Positions 4,001 to 64,000 of a stretch of DNA of 64,000 bases are shown here, one piece after another. The notes under the pieces were generated by a model. That model did no database searches, was not told where the DNA came from, and saw only the letters and a program-made list of their open reading frames with translations. The stretch is from the NCBI GenBank assembly GCA_016748015.1, contig JAAOMT010000436.1, forward strand, positions 1,541,596 through 1,605,595, in the 5' to 3' direction. The position numbers and the translations under genes are program-made. The DNA comes from Geosiphon pyriformis. Its lineage: Eukaryota > Glomeromycota > Glomeromycetes > Archaeosporales > Geosiphonaceae. Each line of letters starts with the position of its first letter. Within the stretch, counting starts at the first letter, position 1.

Positions 4001-4100
4001 AGTTTTATAATTAAAATAAATTAATTATTAATATACTATTTTTTTTATAATTTTATTATTTATTTTATAAATAAAATCCAATCACTATTTAATATTTTTG
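1000..4100 (-). mobile_element. Decayed Ty3/gypsy retrotransposon, inverted copy (5' half)
   Basis: This stretch matches, in reverse complement, the 5' half of the + strand Ty3/gypsy element to its right. Pairs I could align by eye are 1235-1330 with 9945-10065, 2020-2240 with 8195-8410, 2900-3010 with 7300-7410, 3140-3240 with 7190-7290, and 3660-3860 with 6870-7040. Since the right-hand copy carries protease just after the region matching 1.2-2.2 kb, the left copy should hold its LTR near 3.6-4.0 kb, gag at about 3.3-2.0 kb and protease at about 1.9-1.0 kb on the minus strand. All frames are broken. It lacks the Tc1 insertion found in the other copy. The outer limits are uncertain. Confidence 0.6.
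3660..3900 (-). repeat. LTR segment of the inverted Ty3/gypsy copy
   Basis: Low-complexity blocks built from variants of TTAATAATT separated by single-codon-size spacers, followed by the complement of TATATAAG. The same arrangement, reversed, occurs at 6870-7050 and 14230-14510, the two LTRs of the + strand element. I take this as the 5' LTR of the minus-strand element. Its outer boundary could not be fixed. Confidence 0.5.
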
Positions 4101-4379
4101 ATTTAAGTAATAATATATGTGTTCATATAAGTATATTATATTGATTTGTTTGGTTTAAATAGCTGGCTATATATAATAAAAGTGTAAGTTATATTTAATT
4201 TAAACCACTTAGTCTGATTTTATATACTAAATAGCAGTTAAATTTTACTTATTAATTAAAAAAAATTTAATATAATATAATTATCTGAAATTTTAAATTA
4301 AATATAATATATGTACTATATATAATTAGTTATTTAATTAATAAAAACAATATTACGAAATTATATAAACATATATATT

Positions 4380-4585
4380 AATAATTATATTTAAAAAAAA
4401 CATATAATTAATTCTTAATTCAAAACTAATAATATTGCTATAAATAAAACTTTTATTTTTTAATTTTTAATTAATTATTTAGTCATAATTAATTATATTT
4501 ATTAGTTATTAATATCATATAATTAGCCAGTTTTTTTTTAGAATAAGTTATTAATGTAATTATTAACTTGATTATTTTTTTTTAT
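4380..4585 (+). repeat. 5' LTR of Ty3/gypsy, left part (interrupted)
   Basis: Aligns with 14100-14265 of the 3' LTR. Shared blocks include the sequence around 4440-4460 and the one around 4530-4560 (matching 14200-14240). The match stops near 4585 and resumes at 6868, which marks an insertion of about 2.3 kb within the LTR. Confidence 0.55.
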
Positions 4586-4704
4586 TGCTTAATAAGTACA
4601 GCCCAAAAGCTACCTAGAATAATACATCAAAGAAATAATCTAAACTAGACATTAATTATGTATTTTCTATACATGACTAATTACTCAGACCAATCAAAAA
4701 CACA

Positions 4705-6868: not shown

Positions 6869-7085
6869 GACTTATTTATTAATATAATTATTGATTTAAT
6901 TACTAACTTAATTATTAACCAAATTATTGATTTTTTTTTAATAGTATATAAGTAAAATTTTTTTAAAAAAGCATTATTTATACTTAAATTATATTTAAAT
7001 TAATACAATGATATTAACTTTTTTATTTTTTATTTTCCTTTTTTTTTTAATTTATATAATTATTAGTATTTATAATGTATATTAA
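6868..7085 (+). repeat. 5' LTR of Ty3/gypsy, right part
   Basis: Matches 14230-14510 closely: repeated ATTATTAATATAATTATTAA-type units, then TATATAAGTAA, then a GCATTATTTATACT block, then a T-rich run ending near 7085. TATATAAG at about 6935 could be the TATA box of the LTR promoter. Element 2 has the same blocks reversed at 3660-3860. Confidence 0.6.
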
Positions 7086-7089
7086 ACTT

Positions 7090-8940: not shown

Positions 8941-9011
8941 AAAATTATTAATTTAAAAAAAACAACAACCAAAAACCAATAAATATCTTTAACAAACAAT
9001 ATTAGCTCTTA

Positions 9012-9038
9012 CAGAGGGTGTCCAAAAGTTTCCGAACA
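9012..9038. repeat. Left terminal inverted repeat of Tc1/mariner element
   Basis: 27 bp beginning CAGAGGGTGTCC, the exact reverse complement of 9591-9617. Preceded by TA at 9010-9011. Confidence 0.9.
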
Positions 9039-9119
9039 AGATTTTATTTAACAATAATATTTATTTTTTTATAAAATAAAACAAAATAAACAACATATTT
9101 ATAATTTTATAGTAATTTT

Positions 9120-9368
9120 CTAAATTTTTCTATTAAGTGTTACTAAACGTTTAAGTCGGCGATATTTTTGGTGAGTAAATAAACGTGGACGTCCTGAACA
9201 AGGTCTTGAATCAATTGAACCAGTTTCTTTAAATCGTTTTATTGTATCCGAAACTGTTGTCAAGCTGCAATTGACTATGTTGGCAATATCACGATATTTC
9301 TTGCCATGCTGTTGTAATAAGCATATAGTAATACGTTGAGCAATCATTAATTCTTTTTTTGCTCCCAT
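9120..9368 (-). CDS. Tc1-like transposase, N-terminal DNA-binding domain only
   Basis: 82 residues with two helix-turn-helix units as in the paired-like domain of Tc1 transposases. The first (about residues 8-50) has QRITICLLQQHGKKYRDIA and TTVSDTIKRF. It is followed by the GRPR-type linker motif CSGRPRL (about 57-63) and the beginning of a second helical unit. In full Tc1 transposases this domain binds the inverted repeats and is followed by a DD34E catalytic domain of about 200 residues; here the frame ends after the DNA-binding part, about 80 bp inside the end of the element. The product, if made, could bind element ends without cutting and so act as an inhibitor; that role is inference. 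Confidence 0.75.
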   Translation of the reverse strand: MGAKKELMIAQRITICLLQQHGKKYRDIANIVNCSLTTVSDTIKRFKETGSIDSRPCSGRPRLFTHQKYRRLKRLVTLNRKI

Positions 9369-9590
9369 TTCGTTTTAATAAAAACGACGAAAAAATCTTA
9401 TATGCGCGTTACATTTCATTTTTATAAAAAAACGAGTATGAATAAAATCGATTATGCGCGTCGCGAAAAAACATTATACACGCGTGTTTAAAAAATAAAA
9501 AACCCGTAATTAAATAATTAACTAACTTAATTTAGTAATAAACTCGTGCTTTTCTAATTATTCAAGCATGTGGAATGTTACTCCAAAGTT

Positions 9591-9617
9591 TGTTCGGAAA
9601 CTTTTGGACACCCTCTG
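9591..9617. repeat. Right terminal inverted repeat of Tc1/mariner element
   Basis: 27 bp ending CACCCTCTG, exact reverse complement of 9012-9038, followed by the TA duplication at 9618-9619. Confidence 0.9.
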
Positions 9618-9619
9618 TA

Positions 9620-10060
9620 GTAATAATGTTACTCTCTTTATTTGTAAGACTTAGATTATTGGGTATTTTATAGATCTAATATTAAATAGTGATTTATTAG
9701 TTAGTGTTATTGCTCAACACTTTTTAGACACAATTAGAAAAAAGATAGATAAACTATTAATCAGATTTATGATCAATATTCATAGAAACAAAAAGAAAGA
9801 TCTAGAAATTGTTAAAGCTGTTCTTATTTAAATTAATAGAATTTATATTGAAATTAATATAAAAGCATAAAAAGCAAAAAATTATACTATAATTATTAGA
9901 AATAAATGGCTAAAGAAAACAAAAACTCTTTTTAATTATGAACTTTGTAAATTTATAATTTAAAGTAAGGCCTAATCAATTGTGATCAAATATTATTATT
10001 AGACTATTTCTTCTGCTGTAATTCAATAACAATAGTAGCAAAGCAACAATAATAACAACT
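9620..10060 (+). pseudogene. Decayed Ty3/gypsy aspartic protease
   Basis: Directly after the Tc1 insertion the + strand reads through NSDLLVSVIAQHFLDTI, which fits the DSGAxxSVI active-site segment of retroviral-type aspartic proteases with the catalytic Asp changed to Asn and the Gly lost. Further on come MINIH, KNYTIII and NKWLKK, the usual strand and flap pattern of this family in Ty3/gypsy elements. In-frame stops interrupt it. The end (9945-10065) is the part that matches 1235-1330 in inverted orientation. Confidence 0.6.
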
Positions 10061-10429
10061 CTGATAATTTTAAAAACTCTAAAGAAAAAAAAACCAAAAA
10101 TATCCAACTAATTTATTTGAAGCCCTACTAATTAAATTAACAAAATAATAAGTTTATCAAAAAAATAGATTAAATAAAAAAACTCGAATTTATATAAAAA
10201 ACCAAAAATAAATAAGCATTTTCTGTTATAGTAATATATATAAAAAAAAAACTTTATGAATTTATGTAAATTATTAACAGCTAAATACAATTACCAAATA
10301 AGATATATATTTTTTTTCAAAAGTTAATAACACTCTTATTGATTTAAAAGCTTAATATATTTTATAACTATTAATTTAACTATTGAATTTTAACAAGTAA
10401 AAATAAATTCTACCAGCAAAAAAAAAACT

Positions 10430-10720
10430 ATATTTATTATAAAATACAAAACCTATAAATTTACAGTAATTTTCTTTAGATTAATAAATGTTTCACTCAT
10501 ATTTCAAAGATTAATAAATAAAGTATTCGGATCAGAACATTAAAAATTTTTTTTTGTGTATTTTGATAATATATCTATATACTTGAAAACTTAAAATGAA
10601 CATTTAAAACACTTTCAAAAAGTTTTTGACTTCCTAAGAAATACTAAACTCAAGATTAATTCTATTAAATTATTTTTCAGAAAACAGTTTATCCAGTTTT
10701 TAGATTATTTTATAACAAAA
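10430..10720 (+). pseudogene. Decayed Ty3/gypsy reverse transcriptase (palm region)
   Basis: On the + strand, VYFDNISIYLKT near 10557-10592 corresponds to the YxDD box and following strand of Ty3/gypsy RT, with the second catalytic Asp reading Asn. Upstream, TTTCAAAGATTAATAAATAA is consistent with the conserved FQRLMN segment before it. Downstream, a match to the LRNTKLK segment that follows the palm can be read with stops. Only this central part is legible. Confidence 0.6.
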
Positions 10721-11089
10721 AATAGAATTTTTTCAGACTTAGTCTAAGTTAAAAAAGTACAAAAGCTTAAACAATCAATGAATATTTCCAAGCTATAATT
10801 TTATCTGAAATTAGTCTTATATTATTAAAATTTTATTAAAAGTTTCTTTAAAATTGTACGTCTATTTAATTAGCTCTTAAGAAAATATGTTAATTATTAT
10901 TAAAGTACTTTTTAACAAAAAATATTTGAAACTTTCAAAAAAAAACTAACTACTAAACCAATTTTAAAGCAATTAAACTTTGACAAGCCATTAATTTTTT
11001 ACACTAATATCTTTAATGTTTTTTTGAATGCTGTTTATTACAAAAAAAAGAAAAAAAAACAATTCATAACATATAGTAGTAGAATCTTT

Positions 11090-11345
11090 TAACAAATGAA
11101 AAAAATGATATAATAACCAAAAAAAAATGCATGGCAATAGTATAATCTGTTAATTATTAAAACAAATATCTTATGAAAAAAAATTTGATATATACATGGA
11201 TTATTAAGCTTTAGTTTAATTAAAGAATAAAAGAAAGTAAGATTATAAAAGACTTTTTCAATAAATTATTTATTTAGATAAATTTGATTATAATATTAAA
11301 TACCAAAAAAAATAAGCAATCAAAATACAGATGTTCTATTCTGAT
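11090..11345 (+). pseudogene. Decayed Ty3/gypsy RNase H
   Basis: The + strand reads TNEKNDIITKKKCMAIV then a stop where Trp is expected, then SVNY and a stop. This matches the conserved Ty3/gypsy RNase H segment Y-x3-T-x-E-C-A-V-W-A. The catalytic Glu position reads Lys (KKKC). Further on, IYTWII corresponds to the TDHxAL strand, and NQNADVLSR-like remnants end near 11345. Replacement of Trp codons by stops and Glu by Lys fits G-to-A decay. Confidence 0.65.
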
Positions 11346-11639
11346 TAATTACCCAGTAAAAATTAATTAACAAAATTAATCAAATTGATTATTAATAAAA
11401 TGCTTAACTAAACAAATGACAAATAGATTTAGAAAACTATTTAGCACTTATTAAATTTTTAAGTAAAAAAAAATACTTACTAAAATATAATTGGCAACAA
11501 AAAAAATATTTATAAAAATAGTTAAATTTTTATTTGATTTACTAAAACCAATTATATTAAAAAAATTAAAAAGATTCTAATTAATTACAAATAGTTATCT
11601 AATTTAAAAAAAATTATAATATACAATATGCATACCGAT

Positions 11640-12330
11640 TTTTTAGCATAATATTTCAGAAAAACAAAGATCATCCAAAAAATATAAGCAAAATATTATT
11701 GATTAACATTAGAGAAAGATATAACAAAATATATAGAGAATATTCATTAGTTAATTTTTTAACAGAATTGGAATTAATATTATTGGATCTTTAACAGTAA
11801 TTTCTAATGAAAATAGATAAATTATAATAATAACTGATTATTTAATATAATAGATAAAAGCCAGAGCAATACCAAACCGTATAGCTGTTTCAATTGCCAA
11901 CTTTATCTATAAAAAAATTATGTGTAAATATAGATGTTTTTGAAAACTACTTTTAGATAAAAAAAGAGCTTTTTTTAGCTCTTTAGTAAAAGAACTATTA
12001 AAAAAACTCAGAGTATATCATAAATTTTTATTTCTTTATTATTTACAAACCAATAGATTGGTGAAATATTTTAATTAAAAACTTTGTAAAACTTTAGCAA
12101 AAACCAGTAAAGCAACAAACTTATAAAACAAAGTCTTATTTTTAGTTTTTTTTGTCTATAAAACAATAAATCATAATATAACTAAATATAAACTCTTTTA
12201 CTTACTTTATGAATATATAACAATATTACTTATTAAAACTAATATCAAAACAATATTCTTTAAAAAAATAACTGAATTTAATTATAAAAACATTTTGCAA
12301 TAAAAACTTAAAACAATTTTAAATACTTTA
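11640..12330 (+). pseudogene. Decayed Ty3/gypsy integrase
   Basis: A zinc-binding-like segment at about 11640-11750 is followed near 11769 by GINIIGS, corresponding to the GIDIIGP motif that carries the first catalytic Asp (here Asn). Next come IIIITDY (second Asp kept, about 11825), ARAIPNR, then LDKKRAFFSSLVKELL (about 11950-12000), where D-Q-G-x-E-F is expected, and LQTNRLVKYFN (about 12045-12075) for the HPQTNGLVERFN motif. The order and spacing are those of a Ty3/gypsy integrase core. Several stops make it inactive. Confidence 0.75.
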
Positions 12331-12339
12331 GTAAAAACA

Positions 12340-14100
12340 TAAATAATTGTTTATAAAAAAATAAAAATCTTTCAAGAAAGACTCAAGAAAAAAAAAACAT
12401 ATAAAACACTTTTTCTAAGTATTAATGACTTAGTTCTTGAATACAGATCAGATTAAAACAATGCTTTTGGTAACAAATTTTCAAGTTAATAGAAAAAACT
12501 ATTTATAATTAACAAAGTTTTAAACAATAGATTTTATATTTTACAAACAATATTTAATGATCGACTTGTTAATGATATACGAATCAAAAAATATCATAAA
12601 AGAACCAATTGGCTACCAATTATTATAATACTATTACCAGCCGAAATTTGAAATATTAATTAGCATGAAATTATTCCTATAATTCTTATTACCAACTAAT
12701 ATATATTATTGTTTTAATTTATTACTTATTATCTTATCAAATTATCCTAATTATTATCTAATTAATAACTTGATTTGTACAGAACACAAATATAACCAAA
12801 TTGTGATAATTAGATTATGTAATACACCAAACTATATAATATTCAGAATTTGCTGAAATATTTAGTAATCCGACAAAATATTCAATAGTTTATCAAAATA
12901 ATTTATAGTTTGCAGAAATAACTTGTAGTTCAACAAAATGTATTTTTAGTTTATCAAAATATTAGGAAAAAAATGCTAAATCATAAAATAGTATTATAAC
13001 AAGTTGTATAAAAGAAAAGCTTTTCTTTTAAAAAAATGTATTTCAGTTAGAATTAAATTTCACTAGATATCTCTTTTATAAATTAACTCCAATAAAACTT
13101 ACTTAAAAAATATAAAATTCCTTAATTATTATTACTTCGAAATTAACCCTTTATACTAATATTTTGAAATTAATTAGTTACTAATTTCAATAACTGTTAA
13201 TGATTTCCAAACTTGGATTTAAAACAACTTCCTTAACATATTTTTTTACTTTTTTTTTTAGTTTATTTTCTTTTTCTTTTTTTATTCTTTTTTTTTATAT
13301 TATTAGGTAGTTTATAGTCGAGATTTTTTGTAGAAAAATTATTATTTACAGCAAAGTAATTAAACACAATTTTAAAGAACTTACAAACAAAATTATTTGG
13401 TAAAAAAGTCAACTTTTACTACAAAATAACTATACAAGTAATTAGTACAGAGTTAATTATTCTATTATAAGCCCAACAGTATACATAGTCTAAAGTATAG
13501 AAAAATATTTTAGAAGGAAAATTAACTTATTAAAGATTTATTAACTTCTATTAACAGCAGAATTAGCAGAAAAATAGTATTAACAATATTAAAAAAATGT
13601 AAAAAACTATCCAAATATTTTGCTTATTATTAAAGAACAAATAATAATTAAAAATAAAATTGGAGTACATTCTGTTATTAGCCTCTAAAGAACTGTTATA
13701 AAAAGACAAAAAATTGATAGTAAATTAGAAAGATATATGTTTAAATATATAACTACTAAAATAATTAATTTTTTTAACACAATTAAAAAAAATAAACAAA
13801 ATATTACTTATAAATAAAAATTTTTTATATAAAAAACAACTTAAAAATTATAGAAAATATAAAGCTTTTGAAAAAAACAACTTTAGAAATCTGGAGAAAA
13901 ATTTTGAATATTGTATATTTAAATGTTCTAAAAGTTTTAATTATTGCAAAAAAAGCCAAAACATTCATACAAAAATTTGATTTTTTAGATTTAAAACTAA
14001 TATTGTTTCTGTTTTTTTACATACTCTTAGTCAAAAATTTTAACAAATTAGTTAGCTTTAATATAGAAATTTTCAAGCTTTTCTTATATAATTTTATTTT
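12340..14100 (+). other. 3' part of Ty3/gypsy element, no readable gene
   Basis: Lies between the integrase remnant and the 3' LTR. It should hold the integrase C-terminus and an untranslated part. A pyrimidine-rich stretch at 13240-13310 shows no clear polypurine tract on the + strand. I see no domain in it. Confidence 0.45.
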
Positions 14101-14510
14101 ATTAAAGCTTAATCTTTTTAAAAATAATAATATTATAGATAAAACTTTTACTTTTTAATTTTTATTTATTTACTTAACCATATATATTAGTTATTGATAT
14201 TATATAATTAACCAGTTTATTTTTAGAATAAATTATTAATATAATTAATAATTTGATTATTGATTTGGTTATTAATATAATTATTAACTTAATTATTAAT
14301 TTGTTTACTAATCTAATTATTGACTGAATTATTAATATAATTATTAACTTGATTATTGATTTTTTTTAATAATATATAAGTAAGACTTTTTAAAAACTAT
14401 AGAAAAGCATTATTTATACTCAAATTATAATTAAATTAATACAATAATATTTATTTTTTTATTTTTTATTATTATTTTTTTCTCTTTTTTTTACATTGTA
14501 TAATTGTTAG
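14100..14510 (+). repeat. 3' LTR of decayed Ty3/gypsy element
   Basis: Continuous version of the LTR whose other copy is split between 4380-4585 and 6868-7085. It shows the run AACTTTTACTTTTTAATTTT near 14140-14160, the repeated TTATTAATATAATTATTAA units at 14230-14350, and TATATAAG at about 14375. The T-rich end near 14510 is the inferred 3' limit. The usual TG..CA ends cannot be recognised, presumably because of decay. Confidence 0.55.
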
Positions 14511-14514
14511 TTTT

Positions 14515-17500
14515 TGTAAAATATCTTACAATTATGAATAAACTTAATAAAGTAAAGATATAATATTTTAATATTTATAATTTGGTTATAAAAGCTAAAC
14601 AATTTTTGAATAAATTGGTTTTGAATATAAAATAAACTATTAGTCTTTAAAAAAATTTTTGTTTGTTATATTATCTATTAAGTTTTTTTCATATTAATTA
14701 ATTATAATTACTAGGGTTTAGTATTGTTTTTTTGTCTTTTTAATAAACTAATAAGATAAAATTAATATTTAATACTTAGAAAAAGCTTTTCTTTTTTATT
14801 AAGTTTTTATAAAATTTAATTCCAAAAAAGTTGATTTTCAATATTACTACTTTACAAAAAATAAAAAAATAAAATAAAACAAAAGAAAATAAAATAAAAA
14901 AATAGAAAAAAAAATTAATATTCTGTTAATTGTCATAATTAAAAACATATAGTTTAAGTTGTTAAAGTTTTAAAAATATCTATGCTAATTGTATTCGGCC
15001 TAGAACTAAAATAAAAAAAAACAATCAATTAGATTTTAACAATTAGAGTATTAGAATCATATACTTGTAAATTGAATAATAATATTTTATTTAATAAATA
15101 AGAAATATAAAAAAAATAAGAATATAGAATAAATTTTATTCTGGTTTGTTTTTTATCTGCTAAAACTATTTGTTTTTATATATTTTTTTTTAATTTTATA
15201 AGATTGTTTTTAATTTTTTATTATTATTAATTATTGCTTACTATATTGGTTATTACTTTATTTTTTCATATTATAATTAGATATTTTATATTATTTTTAG
15301 TTATTTTGTAATATTTTATATTAAAAAAACTTAAACCCAATAATTAAAATACTATTAAAGACATTAGATTATTATTAGTTAAAGATTTTCAAATAAAAAA
15401 TTACTTATTTAAAAACTTTTAACAAACAAACAAATTTGAATTACAAACAAAAATATGGTTTAAAAACTCCATTTTTTTTACAATATATACATAATATACT
15501 AAAATATTTACTATTATACAAATATTTTTTGATAATAACTAATAATTTTTTATTTACAGTTTTTATTAAATATGTATTTACACCAGTAATAAACTTGTTT
15601 ATAATATTAGCAATCATATAAAAATTAGAATATTAAACCAAAATAGTAAGATATTAGTTAATATTACCAATAAAAAACAAATTTACAGTTTTAAAATCTG
15701 AATTAATTTTTTATAAAAAATATTATTTGCTAATTTTATTAAATAATAGATATTGCTAAAAACTATTAATTAGTTATCATTAAAAATTTTTTTTTAATAT
15801 TTATAAAAAAACAAATCCAAAAATATTAACTTAATTTGTTAATATATTGGTTTATTTATTATCTAAAATACCAAAATAATCTTTAATTTTTATTTACTTA
15901 ATAAAAATATTTTAAATTTAATAAATTTTTAACATAATAATACTTAATTTAGCAATTATTACAAAAATCAAAAATTTTTAACAATATTTCAGTATTATAA
16001 ATATTTAAAAAAACTTGACTGTTAAAAAAAATTTTAATATTAAATAATATTAAAATATATTTAAGTGCTAAAATAATAATCTGTATTTCAATCAGAATTA
16101 AAAACAATAAATCATAAATTTTAATATCAGTTTTCAAATTAATATTAAGAAAATAAGTTATAGTATTACCAATAATATTAAAAAAACTAAATTTTTAACA
16201 AAAAAATAGCTTACAATTTAGATTAAATAAACCAAAAGCATTAGTATTTAACATATTTATATAAAAAAATTTTTCAAAAAAAAATAAAAAATTCTTAATT
16301 AAACTATTATTCAAAACAAATTTTAAAACATAAGTAAACCATAAAGAACTTAAGTTTTTTGGATTTATGTATTTTTAATAATTATTTAATAATTAATTAG
16401 TAAAAACAATATTAAAATATTTGAAAATTCTAACAATTTGAAATATTCTATAAAGTTTAATATGTTTAAAACAAAGATGCTATACTTAAAATAAAATATA
16501 TTAAATATATTGACAGCTAAAAAAATTTCATTGTTCAGAAATATATTTGTAATATTTGCTAAAAAATTGTTTATAAAGTTAATTCTTAGCTTAATTAAAA
16601 ACTGAAAAAGATTTTGAAAAATCCAATTCATTATCTGTAAATCTATTAATTTGTGTCTAAAAAGTCTATTAATAATTCTTTTAGTATTAACCAAACCAAT
16701 TACTAAAACCACTTTATTCTTAGTTTGAACTTAATTAAACAGTTTTAAATTATACAATAATAGATAATATATAGCTTTACTCAGAAATCTTTTAGACAAA
16801 TTAGTTTTATGTTTCAACTTTTTCTGATTAAATAATTTTATTTTTTACATATACTTTTGCTTACAAAACTGGATTGAATCCTGTAATTAACAATAAATTA
16901 CAACACAACTGAAACCAAATATATAAACTGTTTGTTAGAAATAACTTTATATAACATTATAAATAAATAAAAGTTTATATTCAAATAAGTTTTTTTTAAA
17001 CTCTATATATGTTTATTAAAATTCTTTTGATTATTAAAATAAACAATGAATTGATTCAAATAGTTTTTAAAAATATTATTTATTAATAATTAAAATGTAA
17101 TAAATATATTTATTAGATCAAGAAACATAATTAAATACTCAAAATGGCTATAAAATGTTTAAAAAACAGTTTTTTTTTGTTTATATATACTAAATTATAT
17201 GTACTTTAAAGATTGATTTTGGTAAATATTTAAGTAAATCACAATTAATTCAAAAAATTTGATAACGATTTTTAATCATAATTTAAATAAGATTCTAAGA
17301 ATTATTACAAAGTTAAAGGAACTATTTTTCTTTTTAATAAAAAGTATTTATATTTTTGTTAGAGATTTTTAACCACATATTTTTAAAAAAATTGTAAATA
17401 AAATTTTTTTAAAATTAATAAAACAAATATAAATAATATTCTAAAAACACTTTGGCTTTTTTTTGTTAAATATATTAATAAAATTTTAAGCATTTAAAAT

Positions 17501-42517: not shown

Positions 42518-42613
42518 GTATTTATCGATTTCAATTTTTAAAACAGTTACTCTTGGTGAAACTTTAATTTTATATAAATAATGATTAGGGTCAACTTTTA
42601 ATTTCAGAAAAAA

Positions 42614-42630
42614 ATGAAGAAATCCACATT

Positions 42631-42668
<38 letters not shown>

Positions 42669-43752
42669 CATCATTATCATCATCATTATTAAAAGGAAAA
42701 AAGGGTGAATTTTTTTCGCATACATATAGTAGATTACCATCTGCAAAATATGATTTTATACATGATGACGAAGAAATAGATAGGAATAATTTTCACCATT
42801 ATATGATTCGAGCTAAAACTGGAAGACTTTTTGAGGCCCCTATTGAAGAAAAATTGAAAGAAGGATGTATAGTTTTAGATGTTGGGTAAGAAATGATTTG
42901 AAAAAGATTTTTTTGGAAATCTACATATTTTAACCCTCTTTTTTTCCCACAAAACTAAAACTCTTTTTATTAAAACCTTATCACATTTAAATATATTATT
43001 AGTTGTGGTTCTGGAACTTGGATACTAGAAATGGCGGTAGAATATCCGCACTCTAGCTTTATCGGTTTCGATATCGCTAAAGTTTATCCACAACAAATAA
43101 AACCAAAAAATGTTAAATTTTTTCAGGCAGATATTTTGGAAGGTATAAAATTTCCAGAAGAACATTTCGACTACGTAAAAATGCGATTTCTCATACTAGG
43201 AATTCCACAACGTTCTTGGCCACTAGTCCTTGACGACTTAATAAGGGTAACAAAACCTGGTGGTTGGATTGAATTAGCCGAACCAGAAATAGTGTCTACC
43301 GTTTTAACCCCAAACTATCGTAGATATTTAACAGCAAGTAAGTAAAAATTTTTCTTGATTCATTTATTTTGTGAGTACAATTTTTTTTTCTTTTCAAAAT
43401 AAATAAATAAATATATATATAATTTTTTTATTTCAAAGTGCATAAACTTTTCGTTAAACGTAAATTAGATCCAAACATTTGCAACAAACTAAAAGATATC
43501 CTTTGCGATACCGGAAAATTAAGGTTTATTGAAAGTGGAACTTGGGAAATTCCTATTGGAAACATTGCCGATGAATTAGGTCAATTTAATGCCAGACATG
43601 TTTTAAATTTTGTACGAATTTATGGACCAAACCTTTTAGAAATTCTTGAAATGAATCAAAATGAATGGGAAAACTTTTTCCCAAAGATTGAGGAGGAGTT
43701 TGAAAATTTGAATGAGTTACAATGTTATCATTACGTTTATGGACAAAAATGA
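42614..43752 (+). CDS. SAM-dependent methyltransferase, three exons
   Basis: Exons 42614-42885, 43003-43337 and 43439-43752, with introns of 117 and 101 bp that obey GT..AG. The joined frame closes at 306 residues. After a Ser tract (about residues 7-24, encoded by TCA repeats) comes the class I Rossmann-fold methyltransferase: motif I LDVGCGSGTW at about 88-97, split exactly by intron 1; the acidic residue after strand 2 in FIGFDI; FQADILEG after strand 3; FDYVKMRFLILGI at strand 4; and RVTKPGGWIELAE before strand 5. This binds S-adenosylmethionine; the methyl acceptor cannot be told. Such proteins form large families in glomeromycetes (from memory). No membrane or targeting signal. It is the only intact non-Myb gene between 19 and 53 kb. 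Confidence 0.9.
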
Positions 43753-44490: not shown

Positions 44491-45887
44491 TTATTGATTA
44501 ATTTTTACCTGTTTTTTAGAATTTTCCTTCATTTTTTTGTATTCATATAATTTTTTTCGAAGTAAATTTTGGTTTTCTATACTAAAATTTTCTTTTGCTA
44601 ATTGCTCTTCAAATCTAATTACCTTTTTTAATGCTTCATATGCTTCTGTAATTGTAATTAAAGCAGGTGGAGATTTTTCTAATTCTTCTTCTGAGTCATT
44701 AATTTTATTGGTTTCAATTTGAGCATCGGCTAAAACTATATCTACAATTTCATTATTATCAAGAATATTTTCAGTTGCCAATAATTCATCAACTGCTACA
44801 GTATAATCTTCGAGATTTTTGACCAATTGTTGTGCATTTGATGGTAAATTGTTNNNNNNNNNNNNNNNNNNNNNNNNNNNNNNNNNNNNNNNNNNNNNNN
44901 NNNNNNNNNNNNNNNNNNNNNNNNNNNNNNNNNNNNNNNNNNNNNNNNNNNNNNNNNNNNNNNNNNNNNNNNNNNNNNNNNNNNNNNNNNNNNNNNNNNN
45001 NNNNNNNNNNNNNNNNNNNNNNNNNNNNNNNNNNNNNNNNNNNNNNNNNNNNNNNNNNNNNNNNNNNNNNNNNNNNNNNNNNNNNNNNNNNNNNNNNNNN
45101 NNNNNNNNNNNNNNNNNNNNNNNNNNNNNNNNNNNNNNNNNNNNNNNNNNNNNNNNNNNNNNNNNNNNNNNNNNNNNNNNNNNNNNNNNNNNNNNNNNNN
45201 NNNNNNNNNNNNNNNNNNNNNNNNNNNNNNNNNNNNNNNNNNNNNNNNNNNNNNNNNNNNNNNNNNNGCATTATATATGTCAGCAGGATCAAATTCGGAT
45301 ATAATGGTTTTTAATTTTCTTCATTCTTCTGGTAAACTTTTAGTTGATACACTTTCTGCTTCACCATGAAATCGGTAAACACGTAACTGGTTTCGTTTTT
45401 TGAATTTTTGAATCCATCTATTTGAGAATTGCATTTCATTTTCGTGTATATCAAGAAGTTTGGCAAATTTTTTTCCTTTCTCTTTAATTAGTTGATCATT
45501 GAATTCGATAGTGGCTGCCGTTACTTGTTCTACCCAAAAACTTAAAGCTTGGTCTAATTATGGAAATTTAATGCTTTTGTGTCAAATAGATCTTTTTGAG
45601 ATTTTATCAATTTCAATATTCAACCACTTTGCATGCTCTTTGATTATCTTGGAGACAGTTGGACGAGAAATATGAAGTTCTGGATATTTATGATTGAGGT
45701 AAGCTACAAAAAGCATCATTAACTGCTGCTCATTTTTGTTTTTTGAATAAAGGTTCCGACATTGTGATAATTTAGCAAGTCTGTTAGAAAATGTGCCTAT
45801 AATAATATTAGATTTGGTTTTAGCAAGCTTGAATAAGGGTAAGTGGCTGTACGTGAAAACAGACAAGATCAAAAAGAGTAAATCCAA
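44491..45887 (-). pseudogene. Tigger/CENP-B-type transposase, three in-frame stops
   Basis: Read from 45887 downward: a first HTH region (LHISRPTVSKIIKEHAKWL), a stop (45582-45584), a second stop (45558-45560), then the CENP-B type HTH domain (LSFWVEQVTAATIEF; KFAKLLDIHENEMQFSNRW; IQKFKKRNQLRVYRFHGEA), a third stop (45321-45323), and SEFDPADIYNA, which leads into the DDE domain (first catalytic Asp expected right there). The DDE domain itself falls in the run of N. After the gap comes the acidic C-terminal tail (44826-44491; EEELEKSPP, EAYEALKKVIRFEEQ) usual in this group. With three stops it cannot be active unless the stops are assembly errors, which the neighbouring gap makes worth checking. 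Confidence 0.8.
44854..45267. other. Assembly gap (414 N)
   Basis: Run of N within the Tigger transposase, covering most of its DDE catalytic domain. The real length may differ. Confidence 1.
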
Positions 45888-53485: not shown

Positions 53486-55642
53486 TCAAGGAATATTGAG
53501 CCGTATCGTCGGGTTGCAATTATTCATTTCAACACCAAAAATGGCGGAAAGATGATCATCGCTTTGCCCCAATCCCCAGAAGCTTCGTTGGCTCCCTTGG
53601 TTACAAGCCTTTGATAATATTCAGTTCAAATTATTAATTAAAAACAAAATGCTCATAATTTGTTGTTCAAAAACCATATCAAAAATAAAGATTTCCAAAA
53701 TAACTAACCGGATTTTCACGATAATCTCCTTCATCATTTTGTATCCCATTACAAACAAAAACGCCCGTACCACTTAAAAAGATTTCTGGTAGAATTCCGA
53801 TATATCCTTCTTTTAACGGCGGATATTGTGGCATCCAATCATTCCCATTTGTAAATCTTGCCACACGACCCGGTAGTAACTCGGCTACCAGGTTACCAAA
53901 ACCTCGGTCACCCATACGAGGAGAACCATATTGCAGAACCAGAGGGTTAAGGCCGGGATTTTTGAATTTCACCTCAAGGGCTGCGAAGAGTGCATAGACT
54001 GTTCCATAAAAATTGTTATAGGATTCAATGAAATAGGATGGAAAGAAGTCAGACAAAAATTAAAATTAGAGATTTTTTCATTATATGATCCTGATAGTAA
54101 GTTATTTAAATTTCTTCAGGAAATTTCATTCAAATTCCTTTGTTTTAAAAAAACTCAATTGTAATTCCAATTTATCACCTACCACCAGCAACCCCAGCTC
54201 CGATAAACCTCAAATTGAATTTAGACCCCTTGAACCCATTGACTTGATTTAAAGAACACAGAATATTTTCAATCAATCCTTCCTTATTCCTTTCCCAATC
54301 TGATAAAAATTCTCCATCTACATGTGCGTTATATTTATTACTTTCTCTTTGTGTGACAAGCTCAATTGACGGATAGTGAACTAGAAAATTTTGACGTTTT
54401 TGCCAGTCTTGTTCGGTTTTGTGATCGGAAGCACCAAATATCACGAGAATTTCACGAATGGATGAGGTAGATAGTTGGGCATTAGGTGAGTCAGAGTTAC
54501 GGGAATTAACGTTTTGAATATAGAAGTTTACTTTGGCTGAGATTTAAAATTTTGCAAGTGCAAGAGTGATTCATGTTAATGAAACTCTTCAATTCTGAAA
54601 TTATTTCTTCAAACTCACCTTTAAACTTTTTACGATCATTGCAATCACCCTCCGGTAAACAAAAACCTGCTTTAGCAAATGGTCCTAACCTCGTAGATAT
54701 CTGGATCAATTGATTATTAACGTTTAACTTTGTTTTTCCTAAACTTTCATCACGGGCCAATTCCAGAAAAGTATCTGGCCCGCTGGGTACTGGAAATTTA
54801 GTTCCTGGCTTCGAGTTGGTGTTTGATTGAGACGAAGATAAAAGGGGAATATTGATTTCTTCTGAAGTTGAATTTGAAATGTCGGGAAAATTTGTGTCCT
54901 TGAAATCAATATTTTCTGAATTATCAAGGGTCAAATCAGTTAAAAAACTATTGTCTTGATCTTTATTTAATTGTAATGATGGTTCAGTATCGAATGTAAA
55001 ATTTTTATTCTCAAAAGAGATTGAATCTAAAGCTTGTTCTGATGAGTCAAATCCTTTATTCTCAAAAGAATTGGAAAGTTCCGGAATAGCAAAAAATTCA
55101 TTCTCAAAAGAATTGGAAAGTTTCGGAATAGCAACAGATTGATCCTCAAAAGAATTGGAAAGTTTCGGAAGAGCAACAAATTGATCATCATCATCATCAT
55201 CATCATCAATACTAAAACTTCCTTTGAGTGGGATATTTTGATTTTCATTGCTAAAAGTCGTTTGCGTTTCGATCGAAGGTAGTGCTGATTCAATCTCTTC
55301 CGGTTCAACTAATATTTTATCCCAAAAAATTTTTCGAACACGATTAGAATCAAAATCTGGTAACGAATTTTCTTGCAATTCAAATTGTTGTATTATTTTT
55401 TCACTTTTTTGTTCCATCAACGGCTGTGAGCTGATTTTTACTGGTAGTCCATTTACTACTCCTCCCTCATTGATAAAACTTTCAAAGATTTGTAAAAATA
55501 CAATGCTAAAAATCAACAATAATATATGATATTGATAAAAGGGAAAAGAAGAAATTATTCTTCTATTCAATGGTGAAACGGAATGATAATTAGGTTGTAA
55601 TCTTTTTCTGGCTAATGAGTTTTGACGATGTTTTATCAGCAT
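53486..55642 (-). CDS. Class 3 lipase-like protein 1, catalytic Ser missing
   Basis: Exons on the minus strand: 55642-54619, 54536-54183, 53998-53709, 53608-53486. Introns are 82, 184 and 100 bp, all GT..AG, and the frame closes at 596 residues. N-terminal basic stretch, membrane segment at about 33-56 (signal anchor), then about 240 residues of acidic, Ser/Asn-rich disordered sequence with an eight-Asp run and three 14-residue repeats (LSNSFE). The alpha/beta-hydrolase part starts near GPFAKAGFC. Where active relatives have GHSLGG, it reads AGVAGG (exon 2/3 junction), so the nucleophile is Val. The Asp region (NGNDWMP) and a His (DDHLSAIFG) remain, as does FGASD in place of the oxyanion FRGS. 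The closest ordinary family is Rhizomucor-type triacylglycerol lipase. A secretory or cell-surface pseudo-enzyme is the likeliest reading. Confidence 0.8.
55062..55187 (-). repeat. Three 42-bp tandem repeats in lipase 1
   Basis: Units start at 55062, 55104 and 55146 and differ at a few positions. Each encodes 14 residues around LSNSFE in the disordered region. Directly next to a run of TCA (55188-55209) that encodes eight Asp. Confidence 0.9.
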
Positions 55643-55644
55643 AT

Positions 55645-57425
55645 TTAGGTGTATTTGATCAAATATTCACAAAGAATAATATCAAGGATTTCAAAGATCT
55701 AAGATAAATGACGCAAAAATGCTTTCAAGTTTGATAGATTGAAACTTAAAAAAAAAAAATGGCTTATTAATACTATCGTTATAAATATATTTAAACAATT
55801 TTTTTTTTCTCCTGTTACATGTATTTTTTATTAGTTTTTTTTTTTTAAATTTTGATCAACAGGATATTCAATATCTTTAATTATTTTGAAAATCACAATG
55901 ATTTGGTCGATTTTGCCATGATTTTTAAAATATTCGAAAGAAGACACCCTTTGTTTCAAATAAAATATAATTCTACAATCTAAAAATGAATAAAGATATA
56001 TATGTAAAAGAAGAATTTTTGTCACTTTGTAACAGAAAAAATAGTTTTTACAAGGAAAGGAGTCATCAAATAAAAAAGGTTTAATTTTATAATTTTTCAT
56101 TGATTACAAGCAAGCAAATTTTAATATGTTTTAAATATCCAATTATAAACATAATTCTTTTTCTAATTGATTTATGTATTATGTTAATGTATTATCTACC
56201 ATTTACTGTAATAAATTTTTGTAATGACAACAAATATTTGGAGATTTAAACTTATCTACATAATTCATTATGAATTTTTTTTCAATTCTTTGTTGTTAAA
56301 CTAGTGAAATCAACCTTGATAAAATTATATTCAAAGAGAAAAAGATTTGGTAAATCATAATATTGTATTGTAAATATTTGAGCTTTGAAAAAAAATTATC
56401 TTCTAAAATATATCATCAACCTTAAAATTAGAATATTATATTATATGTTAAAATGCAAAGTAGTAAAAAAAATATAATTCTCAAAAAAAAATTTATCTTA
56501 ATTTTTGAAGGAAAAAAAATTTTTAGTTGTGTTAAAAATTTTTCCTTTCTGTTTTGATAAGACCTTTTAAGATCATTTCGAAAATTATATTAAATATTTA
56601 TTTGAAAAAAGAAAAAGTTTCTATATAAAATTTAAACTCTTTTTGTTGCTAAATTTAGGTTCAAATATTTGTTAAAGAAATATATATTGTAAAAATTCAT
56701 TTTTTCACTTTTTCTCTTCATAGATTTTACTCAAAGTTTATGATAATAATTTACAAAAATTATTTTTTACTAAAAAAAAAAATTGAAAATAAAAGTGCTG
56801 TTTTTTTGAATTATGAAAAGTTTTTGTTGATTTTATATTTTGATTAAGATTTAAATAAAAGATATAATTTGGTTTAAAAAAAAATTATTAAAAATGCAAC
56901 TTTTTAAAAATATTTTAATTATTTATTGAATAGTAGTAATAGCTCAATTGAATAATGAAAAATTTATCAAACCATCTAGTTACAAAATTGGTTTGGAATT
57001 TATCATATAATAAATTTTTGCAAAGTTTTGTTTCTTATCTTATTTTTTTAAAAGTCCAATTTTGGATTGTTAAAAGACCGATAACTAAACTTTCAAACGC
57101 AGAATTTTATTAATTGATTATTATTTGATTATACATTTATTAATTGACACTGATTCAAACCCTAGATGCTCTCCCCCCCTCCCCGTGATATTAGATCGGT
57201 TATTTGTATTATATTTCTGAGGATCTATTTAACCATTCTAAGATTCGATCAAAGTTTTTCCAATAAAAGATTCACGTATATACAATATGAAACTATTTTG
57301 AAAATAAGCCATTAATAAACAATTAATAAAAGATTTTCAAGATTCCACGAACTCAGTAAGGTCATAGTGTAAGTTTAAACAATTTAAGTCCTTTGACCAA
57401 AACAAAGATTTCTTTTTCTTTTTAA
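55645..57425. other. Intergenic region between divergent lipase genes 1 and 2
   Basis: About 1.8 kb, AT-rich, holding the promoters of both genes. No gene seen. The minus frame at 55831-56100 is low-complexity. A C-run occurs at 57172-57184. No TATA element stands out above the background. Confidence 0.45.
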
Positions 57426-57426
57426 T

Positions 57427-59004
57427 ATGAGTTCAATAGATCATAAAAACCAAAGTAAATTTCCATTAAAATTTGAAAACAAAAAAAAGATTAAAATATC
57501 ACAAAATTATCAATCATTTCGACGGCGAAAATGCTCACTTTTTCTGATTTTAATATTTCCGATTGTAATATATTTGTCATTCTCACGACAAAATTTGTTC
57601 ATTGCACGAGCTAATCCAACATTCCCATATCTTAAAAGCAGAGATATTAACTTTCCATCAGTTGATAGTTATAACTTCGAAACTGATCCTTTAGAAGATT
57701 CAAATGTAATCGAAGAACCAAATTTATCATTATTTTCTGATAAAATGGATGCTAATGTATATTTTGAAGACTTACCATTTCAATTAGATGAAATACTATC
57801 TCATGAGCCTGATGCCATAATTAATCATACAATCTTTAATGAACCAAATTTAATGAGTTCAATTCCTTTTCCTGATTTGGCTTCACACAAAACTCCTTTG
57901 GCTACCACAGAGATTAATCGGATAGATGAGATGCCTAATTTAAGATCTTATGCAGCGTTGGCAAATATAGCTTATTGCAGTAAAAAGCGAATTCAACTTT
58001 CACCTAACGTTTATGGTAAGCAAGAAATATTTGTATATAATCGATAAAGATGAAGCTAAAATTTAGACCTATTTATTAATTTTTCTTTTGGTAAATAGTA
58101 CGAATTCAAGGGAATGGAAACGCAATATATTTGTTATTCAGTGGAAGTGAGACAAACTTGGAAAAGTATATTTATGAACAGAAAACTTTGACGGATTATG
58201 AAAATATTCCTGGGGCACAAGTACATTTGGAATTTTATCGAGAGTTTATAGAAGCCAAGCCAGCATTACTCAGCAAAATAAAACCTAATATCAAGGCTCA
58301 AACGAAAACTTTTTTAATTGGACATGGTCTAGGTGGTGGTAAGTTAGTCAAACAAAACTTTTACTTTATTCAAGAATATATATATATATATATTACTAGA
58401 TCGAAAGAAATAACATTTTTTTTAATTTTTAAACTTTTTCTTTTATAAATGTATCAAAGTATTTGCCGTTCTAGCAGCTTTAGCGATCAATGAACAGCCA
58501 CCAAAAGTATCGAAACCAGATGTTTATACATTTGGATCACCTAGAATTGGAAATCGAATTTTTGCTGATTATTCCAAAGAAAGACTTCGATTAATTCGTA
58601 CTACACTGAGAAATGATGATGTACCACGACAACCTGTAATTCATAATTATTTCATTTTTTTCGGAAATAAGTATACACATTTTGGAGCAGAATATTGGAT
58701 AAAAAATACTAGCCTAGTCTTTTATTGTACTCCAACAACTGGTCAATACGAGAGCAAGGTATTTGACATTATTTTAAATTTTTAATTTGTCTATAATTCG
58801 GGTATTGAGACGCAGAATTTGATGTTATTTGTAATCTATTTTTTTCAGAAATGCCTTAACAAAGAACCAGTGACTTCGTTAGCTTATCATGATGGACCTT
58901 ATTTCAGGGTACTAATGAAGAACTGTACAGGGATAAGCAGCCTAAAGAAACCAACTAATCCAATTAAAGCTGAAAATGCAAGATTTGATAGAATTTCTCC
59001 ATAA
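57427..59004 (+). CDS. Class 3 lipase-like protein 2, Ser to Gly at nucleophile
   Basis: Exons 57427-58015, 58099-58338, 58460-58758, 58849-59004; introns 83, 121 and 90 bp, GT..AG. The frame closes at 427 residues. Basic N-terminus, membrane segment at about 36-52 followed by ARANP, disordered region, then the lipase fold from YAALANIAYC. The nucleophile elbow reads LIGHGLGGG, one base away from the Ser codon of the active paralogues (GGT for AGT). The acid region (RNDDVPRQP) and a C-terminal His (YHDGPYF) are intact, as is the FGSPRIGNR block. FSGSE stands at the oxyanion strand. All splice sites and the whole fold are kept, which argues for a maintained protein without hydrolase activity rather than a pseudogene. 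Confidence 0.85.
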
Positions 59005-59846: not shown

Positions 59847-61586
59847 TCAGTCCATCGGAAGATCTCTTTGATAGTCTTCACATTTGTTCATCTGAATTCC
59901 CCAATAAGGGCCATAATGACTGTTTCTAGAGGTAAATTTCACAGCATTTATACAATTCTAGAGAAAATTTCAAAAGAATTAATTTTAAGATTGAAAATAT
60001 AAAAAAAATTCAAAATGTTTCTTTGATGATTCATCATACCTTACTCTCAGAAGTGGCATCCAATGAATTACATCTTCTGAGTTGATTTTCTTTTTTTGGG
60101 CCAGGTATATAATATTCCAATCCACAATGCATATATGCGTTACCCCATATCCAGAGGATAGTATGTGCAACGGGTTTTGTTGGTACATCGTCATTAAAGT
60201 ATGTGGCTCGAGAAATTTTCAATCTTGAATCAGCGTACTGTGCAAATTCTTTATTACCAATTCGTGGAATACCGTAGGTGTATACGTTGATATCAAGCAT
60301 ATTCGGTAGATCTTCGTGGAGAGCCAATGCCGCCAAAATGGCATAGACTAGAAGGGAAATTTTAAGAATATTTTTTGAGATTGCGATATTCAATTTAAAA
60401 TTGAGATTCGTGAAAATGTCTACATACCACCACCCAAACTATGTCCAATAAAAATTGGGATAATATTGTCAGATCGAATGAAAGCTAGGATTTTTGAAAC
60501 AATATAAATTCTTGCCGGGAAAAATTCTTCGTAGAAACCTTGGTTAACTTTTGCTCCTGGACATGATTTATAATCGGTTAAACCAGTTTTTTCTTGAATA
60601 AATTCAGTTAGATCGTCCTCATTTCCAGAGAAAATTATAAGAACTGAATTATCTTTTTCTTCAATATAAGCTGGAAAAAAATTGGTGAAATAGAAAATGA
60701 AAGTAATAATTTCAGATTAAAAATTTTCCCATTCCAAAAGTTCAAACCTTGAATATTTGGCCCGAAATTTATCCCGGTATTGGTACAATAAGCAGTATTT
60801 GCTAATTTCGCAAAGTTTTTAAGACTCATGATATCATAATTTGAGGAGCCTGTATAGTTTAGGGATTTTTCAAATTTTTTCAGATTTCCTGCTTCATTTT
60901 AATGAATTGAATTTTCACAAATTCTTAAATTTTTTTTTCTTTATTAAAGCTGGCAATATTTAAAAAAAAATCAGAAGATTTTTTTCAACTAATTATTGAT
61001 CATTAGTGGTAATGACATTACCTGAGTTTAAAATTTCAGATTCATCTGTTAATTTTCCTAATGGAAGACTCATCTTGGTCTGAGAATAGTCAGTAGCAGG
61101 GTAGTCCACGAGTAAGGGTTCATCATCAACCAAATTTTTAATATCGGAAAATGTAGTAGTTAAACCGATTTCCTCAGAGTTTTGAAGAATCTCATGATTA
61201 TTTTGATCATTGAAGTTGAAATCAATAATTTCATTATTGTTAGGAAAATCAAATTCATTCGGTTTTAAAGAAAGATTTTCGAAATTATTTCTTTGCAAAA
61301 GTGACGTAGCATTTGGACAAATTATTATCGAATCACAATAATAATTTAAAACTGGATTTGCTCGAGTGAAATGATTCGATATTATAAATGATAAGATAAA
61401 TATGATGATGATTAAATAAATTTGAAGGCTTGGAAACAAAAAGAAATTTCGCTTTAGCGAGTTTTGAAATTTCGAGAAAAAAAATAAATTTTCTTTAAAT
61501 ATGATATTGAAGATGATTGAAAATCCAGTGATAATTGATACGAATGTAAAAAACATTTTTTTTTTGTTTATAGGAATGAACGTCAA
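59847..61586 (-). CDS. Class 3 lipase 3, catalytic triad present
   Basis: Exons on the minus strand: 61586-61022, 60849-60748, 60670-60428, 60347-60040, 59957-59847. Introns are 172, 77, 80 and 82 bp, GT..AG; the frame closes at 442 residues. Two hydrophobic segments (about 11-30 and 56-74), the second followed by TRANP, then an acidic disordered region. The lipase part begins with LKNFAKLANTAYC. Nucleophile elbow FIGHSLGG with Ser present; acid in FNDDVPTKP; His in SHYGPYWGIQ near the C-terminus. The oxyanion strand reads FSGNE instead of FRGS/T. Ester hydrolysis of acylglycerols or similar substrates is expected, at the membrane or outside the cell. One extra intron compared with genes 1 and 2 (in the region after AYC). 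Confidence 0.88.
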
Positions 61587-62369: not shown

Positions 62370-63909
62370 ATGCAAAAGCGTAATTTTTTCTTTATAATTT
62401 TTTTTACTAGAGGAATTACGTTTGCTTTGATACAATTTTCTTTGCTTTTATTAGCGACACCAATAGACAAAAATTTAAATTTAAAAGAATTAACTTTCAC
62501 TGATTCTAGTTTCGATGATTATACTTCTTTAAAAGAAAATCAAAATTTCTTAGGTTTAAGTAAAGATGAAAATATTGAATTTAAATCAGTGAATGAATTT
62601 AATAATTCGGGACAAGAAATAAGTTTCATTAATAATTTATTAGAAAACCCAAATATTACTGATAATTACTTATTATTAAGTGAAAAATCATTATATGAGA
62701 CCCAAAAATTTCCCTCAGATTCATTAGAAACCAACTTTCTTGATTCAACGAATGATCAATCTCTTATTTTTAACACGCAACAGGAATTTGAAAATAATCC
62801 TTCCTCTGAGTTTTTATTGGCAGGAAATGAAAAAATGAAACCTGAAGATAAGGTAATAGATAATGATCAGAAACCTTATTTGATGAAATATGCGGTCTCA
62901 GCCGCCGATGCATATTGTGATCCAAGTGCTATTCAACTCTCGGAAAATATTTTTGGTATGTCAAGGAGTACTAGTACTTTAAAATTTCTAATTTTTTCAC
63001 ATATTTATTATGATTGAAAGTGATGTTAAATAATTTATTACGTTGAAAAATCTAGTCGTCTGGGATCTTCAAGAGCATGGTATAATTATCAAATTTAGAG
63101 CCAATGAAACAAAATTAGGAGAGTATATGTATCGGAAAACTGAATTAATTGATTATGAACATAATTATCCTGGAGCAAAAGTATTATTTTCAAATTTTTA
63201 AGATTTTTAGACTTTTTTATGCAAAGACAGCTTAATTTTTTTTAAAAAATAATTTTTAATTGATTGTTAATTAATAGGTTCATGCTGCTCTTTATAAAGA
63301 ATTTAGAGAAAAAGCAGGTTCTAAATTTTTAGAACAAATCATGCCATTAATTAAAGTTAATGATGATTTATTTAGAACTTATTTAGTTGGACATAGTTTA
63401 GGTGGAGGTAAGTTTTAAATTTTCACAAAAATTTAAACAAAAAGATAAAAAATTCTCATTTTTTTATTTTTTTTATTTTTTATTTTATTTTATTTTATTT
63501 TATTTTATTTTATTTTATTTTATTTTATTTTATTTTATTTTTTTACAAAGCTTACGCCCAATTTGCAGCATTACTCTTGGTTGATAAGTTTCCTGAAATG
63601 ATTCAACCAGACGTTTATACTTATGGATCACCACGTATCGGAAATATGGCTTTTGCAAGATACGCGAAATCCCAAATTCATTTACTACGTGTGACGATCT
63701 CCAATGACGAAATCCCACGATACCCTGTTCGTAATCATCTTATCTTTGGATTTACTGGGAACATTTATGAGCATTCTGGGGTTGAGTATTGGATTGAAGA
63801 ACCGGGGGGTCCGAATATAATTGTTTATAGGTGTACACCACAAGAGAGATCTTATGAGAGTAAGGTTAGTTAATGTTCGCCTTTCTCATTATATATTTGA
63901 TTTATCGTT

Positions 63910-63941
<32 letters not shown>

Positions 63942-64000
63942 ATACTAACAAACATCTAATTGTTCATAAAACTAAATTAGTCATGTGTTAATAAAATGGA
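62370..64000 (+). CDS. Class 3 lipase 4, catalytic Ser present, 3' end outside window
   Basis: Exons 62370-62955, 63056-63180, 63278-63407, 63551-63864 and a fifth starting at 63981 and running past the window end. Introns are 100, 97, 143 and 116 bp, GT..AG, and phases agree. Hydrophobic signal segment at about 6-29, then an acidic disordered region of about 130 residues, then the lipase fold from MKYAVSAADAYC. Nucleophile elbow LVGHSLGG with Ser; FGSPRIGN-type block YGSPRIGNM; acid in SNDEIPRYP. The His should lie in the missing last exon. FRANE stands at the oxyanion strand, the only member keeping FR. It has an intron between the PGAK and VHAALY segments that genes 1-3 lack. Probably an active secreted or membrane-attached lipase. 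Confidence 0.85.
63478..63540. repeat. TTTTA pentanucleotide repeat inside intron 3 of lipase 4
   Basis: About twelve perfect TTTTA units directly upstream of the intron's 3' splice site, giving an exceptionally long T-rich tract. Confidence 0.9.
63917..63941. repeat. AT dinucleotide microsatellite
   Basis: About twelve AT units inside intron 4 of lipase 4. Confidence 0.9.

Follow-up and report, generated by a model that had tools for sequence, protein, structure and literature searches.

Two lipase-like genes of Geosiphon pyriformis with Gly in place of the catalytic Ser: candidate pseudolipases from a large, mostly Ser-less family

A stretch of 64,000 nucleotides from Geosiphon pyriformis (assembly GCA_016748015.1, contig JAAOMT010000436.1, positions 1541596-1605595; called the window below) carries four neighbouring class 3 lipase-like genes, here named lip1 to lip4. 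In lip1 and lip2, the nucleophilic Ser of the catalytic triad is replaced by Gly, and both genes belong to a very large genome-wide family that is mostly Ser-less. With a probability of about 0.5, we read lip1 and lip2 as pseudolipases that have the class 3 (Lipase_3) fold and are maintained; they would be secretory and bind a lipid or an ester. This reading draws on the spliced gene models and on the retention of the catalytic Asp and His among those relatives that have Gly at the same site.

Nucleophile elbow and catalytic residues

The models of lip1 to lip4 were reassembled one exon at a time (Table 1). The first-pass annotation of this DNA had described lip1 and lip2 as lipase paralogues that lack the catalytic Ser and yet keep their splice sites, an open frame, the Asp, and a C-terminal His; the rebuilt models bear this out. 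The introns of both genes are of the GT-AG type and the frames are uninterrupted, and lip3 and lip4 likewise have complete frames and GT-AG introns. All four products pass the Pfam cut-off of 22 bits for Lipase_3 (PF01764), with scores of 31.2 (lip1), 65.3 (lip2), 60.7 (lip3), and 78.6 bits (lip4), and a Pfam scan of the four at an E-value of 0.001 found no family besides Lipase_3.

The elbow of lip2 reads GHGLGG, as had been noted earlier, compared with GHSLGG in lip3 and lip4, and it lacks the nucleophilic Ser of GXSXG. Because its nucleophile codon is GGT and that of both neighbours AGT, lip2 is one base away from the Ser state, in agreement with the single-base change proposed before. The elbow of lip1 lacks this Ser too, and here the earlier reading needs correction. 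AGVAGG, with Val at the nucleophile site, results from reading one codon into the intron donor; when spliced at GTAGGT, the elbow is GAGVAG and the residue at the nucleophile site is therefore Gly. A Ser-to-Val replacement is ruled out, the Val being an artefact of translation through the donor. The spliced sequence (F-IGAGVAG-VYALFAAL) aligns without a gap to lip3 (F-IGHSLGG-VYAILAAL) and to chain 1gt6 (GHALGG); we take chains 1lgy and 1gt6 to be the Rhizopus and Thermomyces lipases. In lip1, Ala takes the place of the His that precedes the nucleophile, and the YxH..EYW motif has likewise lost its His; neither residue is known to be catalytic. The catalytic Asp is present in lip1 (NDWMP) and lip2 (NDDVP), as is the catalytic-type His near the C terminus of each (Table 1), and the Asp as well as the His of lip2 line up with the corresponding sites of 1lgy.

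The lip1 product begins with a hydrophobic segment (about aa 32-59), followed by a long acidic stalk and the lipase domain. The lip2 product has a basic leader followed by a hydrophobic stretch from about aa 34, where hydropathy windows above 1.6 begin, and its top window coincides with the elbow region (aa 268), judged by hydropathy only. From the hydrophobic N-terminal segments and the Cys in the last exons, we infer that both proteins would enter the secretory pathway. By eye, eight successive Asp and about three repeats of an 18-residue unit (KLSNSFE...AIP) can be made out in the stalk of lip1 (54619-55642).

Elbow census of the genome

The intron directly follows the elbow in the lipase-like genes, so that a DNA pattern could be used to count elbows: a Gly codon, one codon for His, Tyr, Phe, or Leu, any two codons, two Gly codons, and an intron donor. 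In the genome of 124.7 Mb (406 contigs), this pattern occurs at 200 places (96 + 104), and the reversed control at 1. The nucleophile site is Gly in 128 of them (57 + 71; reversed control for the Gly pattern 0) and Ser in only 30 (29 AGY and 1 TCN), while the remaining 42 have other residues, so 170 of the 200 elbows are Ser-less. The pattern is strict: the elbow of lip1 and others like it escape the count, which says nothing on the intactness of the remainder of each gene. Among 100 listed places, the residues are Gly (62), Ser (16), Ala (9), Tyr (3), Asp (3), Cys (2), Asn (2), Phe (1), Glu (1), and Arg (1). The 62 Gly are encoded by GGA (28), GGT (16), GGC (11), and GGG (7), and this occurrence of four different codons implies that most cases of Gly are not of recent origin. 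The loss of Ser described by the first-pass annotation stands, but to present it as a peculiarity of two genes next to active ones was too narrow a view. Eighteen loci, picked by hand for close copies, were retrieved by their elbow place, and 14 of them have both flanking exons matched by profiles together with the elbow.

Retention of Asp and His

The full set of fetched loci, of which these 18 are a part, and the window gave 98 matches to the exon before the elbow, of which 1 had no exon after the elbow and 4 no usable elbow (two of these being the first half of lip4); the other 93 represent 75 distinct genes. The sample comprises 37 Gly members (lip1 and lip2 included), 23 Ser members, and 15 others; it is biased toward relatives of lip1 and lip2, which served as queries, and its elbows were chosen by script, the elbow of one gene (L058) being doubtful. 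The Asp is retained in all Gly (37/37), Ser (23/23), and other members (15/15). The last exon was recovered in 69 of the 75 genes, and where it was found, the His is retained in 35 of 36 Gly members, 20 of 21 Ser members, and 7 of 12 others. Between Gly members and those with neither Ser nor Gly, the difference has a Fisher p of 0.0024, ignoring relatedness. The Gly members differ widely from one another (median pairwise identity 0.31) and form 17 clusters at 40% identity, of which 15 keep the His, 1 has lost it, and 1 yielded no last exon.

Among the 15 others, all 6 readable members with Asp, Cys, or Ala at the nucleophile site have the His, 5 of 6 members with Arg or Tyr at that site have Arg or Tyr in its place, and 3 are unreadable. 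The His seems to be dispensable for the fold and yet to be retained where a small residue occupies the elbow. In two genes with a GHYLGG elbow (L085 and L086), Arg replaces the catalytic His. Five genes (L015, L017, L018, L026, and L037) carry an Asp where the nucleophile would be, with GHDLGG, GFDSGG, GSDSGG, or GHDSGG as the elbow; Asp serves as the nucleophile in the Asp-nucleophile alpha/beta hydrolases.

Comparison within the Gly group revealed no replacement nucleophile that is invariant among its members. A further difference concerns a motif that in Rhizopus lipase lines the acyl groove. Ser members mostly have VHxGF or a similar sequence, many Gly members have VDxEF (VDGEF in lip1), and lip2 has VHLEF; the D is found in 23/37 Gly versus 2/22 Ser members, and the E in 20/37 Gly versus 2/22 Ser members and 1/15 others. 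A coupling of Gly with VDxEF outside one clade was considered and could not be shown (two supported independent pairs, no significance).

Phylogeny and selection

The tree of the family (75 rows, 149 columns, elbow columns excluded) is poorly resolved, with 35 of 72 inner branches open and 14 starred. In this tree, lip2 falls into a group of ten rows, nine with Ser and one with Gly (Shimodaira-Hasegawa-like approximate likelihood ratio test, SH-aLRT, 84; open fork), eight of these ten coming from its own contig, and the smallest starred set that contains lip2 holds 13 Ser, 3 Gly, and 2 other rows. When nine local Ser rows were held together without lip2, the constrained tree scored higher and was not rejected (approximately unbiased test, p-AU 0.63), so lip2 may be sister to the local Ser rows. 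lip1 joins Gly members weakly (SH-aLRT 90, end branch 1.17), and its origin by tandem duplication of the neighbouring genes was not rejected, whether it was placed with lip2 to lip4 and the nearest paralogue of lip2 (L044; p-AU 0.33) or with eight local Ser rows (p-AU 0.31). Its VDGEF motif supports a place among the Gly members, though it is not a test of it. The histories of lip1 and lip2 are probably separate: lip2 has the look of a recent, local loss of Ser, one base from its Ser neighbours, and lip1 would belong to a Gly lineage of greater age, a placement for which the tree gives weak support.

A single origin of Gly was rejected under the model used (p-AU 3e-55; 37 Gly rows of 75), and it was rejected again with lip1 removed from the tree and lip2 from the group (p-AU 2e-5; 35 Gly rows). 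The starred branches alone require at least four changes of the Gly label, which together with this rejection indicates repeated exchange between Ser and Gly; the number of Ser-to-Gly changes is about five by parsimony. For the Gly codon, parsimony counts about 10 synonymous changes versus about 8 that leave Gly, a rough estimate from a poorly resolved, midpoint-rooted tree.

The ratio of nonsynonymous to synonymous substitution rates (dN/dS, omega) was estimated for 33 pairs by maximum likelihood (ML), NG86, and LWL85, more distant pairs being mostly saturated. By ML, three GHGSGG pairs have an omega of 0.49-0.56, a single GHGIGG pair has 0.53, and three Asp pairs have 0.46-0.56; the value is 0.83 for a young Ser pair and 1.00 for the closest of the Arg pairs. 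Young copies thus evolve fast with or without the Ser. The pair of lip2 and L044 is saturated (NG86 0.31 at dS 1.5; ML dS 12), and lip1 has no close relative among the matches and hence no dN/dS pair. The pairwise estimates neither show nor exclude a function of lip1 and lip2. A six-gene GHGVGG array (L072-L077, C358:866400-948150) with 71-91% identity over the compared codons suits selection tests.

Interpretation

If lip1 and lip2 are maintained pseudolipases, the His-Asp dyad and the small elbow residue would leave an open pocket, which could bind a lipid, a fatty acid, or an ester without ordinary turnover. The two proteins might then act as lipid carriers, as sensors, or as competitors of active lipases. 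The main rival is relaxed decay, in which redundant lipases of a birth-and-death family lost the Ser by drift and lip1 and lip2 are on their way out with no special role. Decay would account for the many different residues that have replaced the Ser (A, D, Y, C, N, F, E, and R among the 100 listed places), the single base that separates lip2 from its neighbours, and the weak constraint in young pairs, some of whose NG86 and LWL85 values reach or exceed 1. Decay also predicts that the His is lost after the Ser, and such loss is seen in Arg and Tyr members and hardly in the sampled Gly members, where the His persists in 35 of 36 across 17 clusters. Furthermore, the frames and splicing of lip1 and lip2 are intact, and a single residue, Gly, prevails at the nucleophile site. 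We therefore think it likeliest that the open site is used, by first choice as a binding pocket or else for catalysis by a Ser-free dyad, and we rate decay as unlikely, if deserving of serious attention. Retention of the remaining triad residues in Gly members argues against simple decay, but it could also serve the fold or binding. The earlier suggestion of pseudo-enzymes rather than dead genes is partly supported by the frames, the splice sites, the Asp, and the His in the two genes and by the His in the sampled family, but it is tempered by the weak constraint in young pairs.

Several observations weigh against a maintained binding role. Retention of the Asp may be structural, since it is kept in all 15 members with other residues too, and the last-exon profile was seeded with four His-bearing sequences and may favour His. 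The small-residue rule has exceptions, because a Gly member (L066) has Tyr and a Ser member (L061) has Asn where the His is expected. Exons are missing or cut in 4 of the 18 retrieved loci, as decay would have it: in L080 the exon is cut before the elbow, L082 has neither exon, L083 has no exon after the elbow, and L088 none before it. In 15 pairs from one Gly array, omega is 0.35-0.79 (ML), 0.61-1.09 (NG86), and 0.77-1.49 (LWL85). Finally, the kept His is predicted by dyad catalysis as well.

This last alternative holds that the Gly members are esterases, in which the Asp-His dyad would activate a water molecule in the space that the small elbow residue leaves free and the oxyanion hole of the lipases would still be used. 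One exception apart, the dyad is indeed kept in those sampled members that have Gly, Ala, Cys, or Asp at the elbow, the His is lost in most Arg or Tyr members, and VDxEF in place of VHxGF in many Gly members would fit such chemistry as well. However, the link to VDxEF comes down to the two supported independent pairs mentioned above, its E recurs in only one of the 15 others, and the Gly group offers no new invariant nucleophile; we regard a Ser-less hydrolase as improbable. The same low odds apply to the bolder proposal of a large, repeatedly evolved class of the alpha/beta-hydrolase fold, in which Gly, the Asp-His dyad, and often VDxEF would form a working Ser-free site that attacks esters with water. 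If it were true, most of the apparent lipase expansion in this fungus would consist of hydrolases or lipid receptors of a novel type. An assembly or base error at the single base that distinguishes GGT from AGT in lip2 is very improbable, given that Gly occurs here more often than any other residue genome-wide and that the lip1 codon, GGG, is two steps from AGT. Should a full census confirm that the His is kept with a small elbow residue and mostly lost with Arg or Tyr, this contrast would provide a direct and cheap test of Ser-free dyad function.

Other features of the window

Table 1. Lipase-like genes and their elbow and last-exon features, in positions of the window
Feature	Position	Strand	Description	Exons	Basis
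lip1	53486..55642	(-)	class 3 lipase-like gene of four exons (596 aa) with Gly for Ser	55642-54619, 54536-54183, 53998-53709, 53608-53486	splice model, Pfam, hydropathy
lip1 nucleophile codon	54193..54195	(-)	GGG (Gly), in spliced GAGVAG		
lip1 elbow intron	53999..54182	(-)	184 nt, GTAGGT...CAG		splice model
lip1 last exon	53486..53608	(-)	catalytic-type His (DDHLSAIFG) and Cys		splice model, last-exon profile
lip2	57427..59004	(+)	class 3 lipase-like gene of four exons (427 aa) with Gly for Ser	57427-58015, 58099-58338, 58460-58758, 58849-59004	splice model, Pfam, hydropathy
lip2 nucleophile codon	58326..58328	(+)	GGT (Gly); AGT in lip3 and lip4		
lip2 elbow intron	58339..58459	(+)	121 nt, GTAAGT...AAG		splice model
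lip2 last exon	58849..59004	(+)	catalytic-type His (YHDGPYF) and Cys		splice model; His aligned with 1lgy His
lip3	59847..61556	(-)	five exons; GHSLGG, Asp, and His all present		splice model, Pfam
lip4	62370..64000	(+)	GHSLGG, Asp, and His present; last exon extends beyond the window (read in L009)		

Apart from the lipase-like genes, the window contains seven similar Myb-like open reading frames (ORFs) on both strands between 20997 and 51076, a dispersed array of paralogues; all five that were scanned match PF00249, with 2 to 5 repeats each. A methyltransferase-like gene, apparently of several exons, lies at 42602-43749, with PF13649 in its middle ORF, and the sequence reads N at about 44840-45270. 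The first part of the window (1-16000) has a low G+C content (11-25%). At 4708-6867, its two strands carry long ORFs that overlap; the two that were scanned, both on the (-) strand, gave no Pfam match.

Comparison with known systems

The closest known systems are the fungal class 3 lipases (PF01764; 1lgy, 1gt6), which lip1 and lip2 resemble in fold score, elbow context, the GxPRxG(N/D) motif, the Asp, and the C-terminal His. Unlike these enzymes, lip1 and lip2 have Gly for the nucleophilic Ser, and lip1 has further lost two other His. Among solved structures, the best matches to lip2 are chains that we take to be the Rhizopus and Rhizomucor lipases, which points to a fungus of the Mucoromycota but does not prove it. 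The genome has one SSU rRNA locus, whose sites for the primers AML1 and AML2 differ from them by 1 base each and whose AM1 site differs by 4; no exact match to AM1 or AML2 was found.

Very large PF01764 families have been described in the Entomophthorales (PMC8588673), including 348 Lipase_3 genes in Entomophthora muscae (PMC10515909); in the portions of these reports consulted, the genes are treated as lipases and a loss of Ser goes unmentioned. A thraustochytrid has nearly 30 Lipase_3 genes, with GXSXG reported in all of them according to the part of the source available (PMC12054267). The word lipase is absent from the main texts of PMC10234402, PMC10512289, and PMC10386755, and occurs once, on putative triglyceride lipases, in that of PMC4771724. 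A literature search, largely outside subscription journals and covering its sources in part, recognised no published Ser-less lipase family in fungi. Gene counts of Lipase_3 serve as a sign of fat digestion by fungi, as in the sections consulted on E. muscae (PMC10515909). Such counts can mislead, because 170 of the 200 elbows in the genome studied here have no Ser; the family of lip1 and lip2 may, as far as its sequences suggest, bind lipids or use unusual chemistry instead of ordinary fat digestion.

The plant EDS1/PAD4/SAG101 proteins are a precedent for a lipase-like domain that is used without enzyme activity, with that of EDS1 acting as a non-enzymatic scaffold, and they are said to keep S-D-H in the part of the source consulted (PMC8813719), unlike lip1 and lip2, where the Ser is lost. 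EDS1 chain 8b28 matches lip2 at 7.9e-06. As to the EDS1-type C-terminal EP domain, lip1 to lip4 have no second Pfam domain at an E-value of 0.001, in a scan that was not a search aimed at EP.

Two other parallels differ in family or fold: the insect yolk proteins, in which Ser is replaced by Gly, and the neutral lipases belong to a different lipase family, and the fold of the pseudophosphatase STYX is unrelated to the lipase fold. Like lip1 and lip2, the insect yolk proteins and non-catalytic neutral lipases are of lipase type with an incomplete triad, and lipid binding has been proposed for them; in the excerpt consulted, non-catalytic lipases of a wasp are supposed to bind lipids of the host (PMC7240578). 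STYX, from what the consulted part of its source describes, likewise has Gly at the site of a catalytic residue, which in its case is a Cys (PMC10211241).

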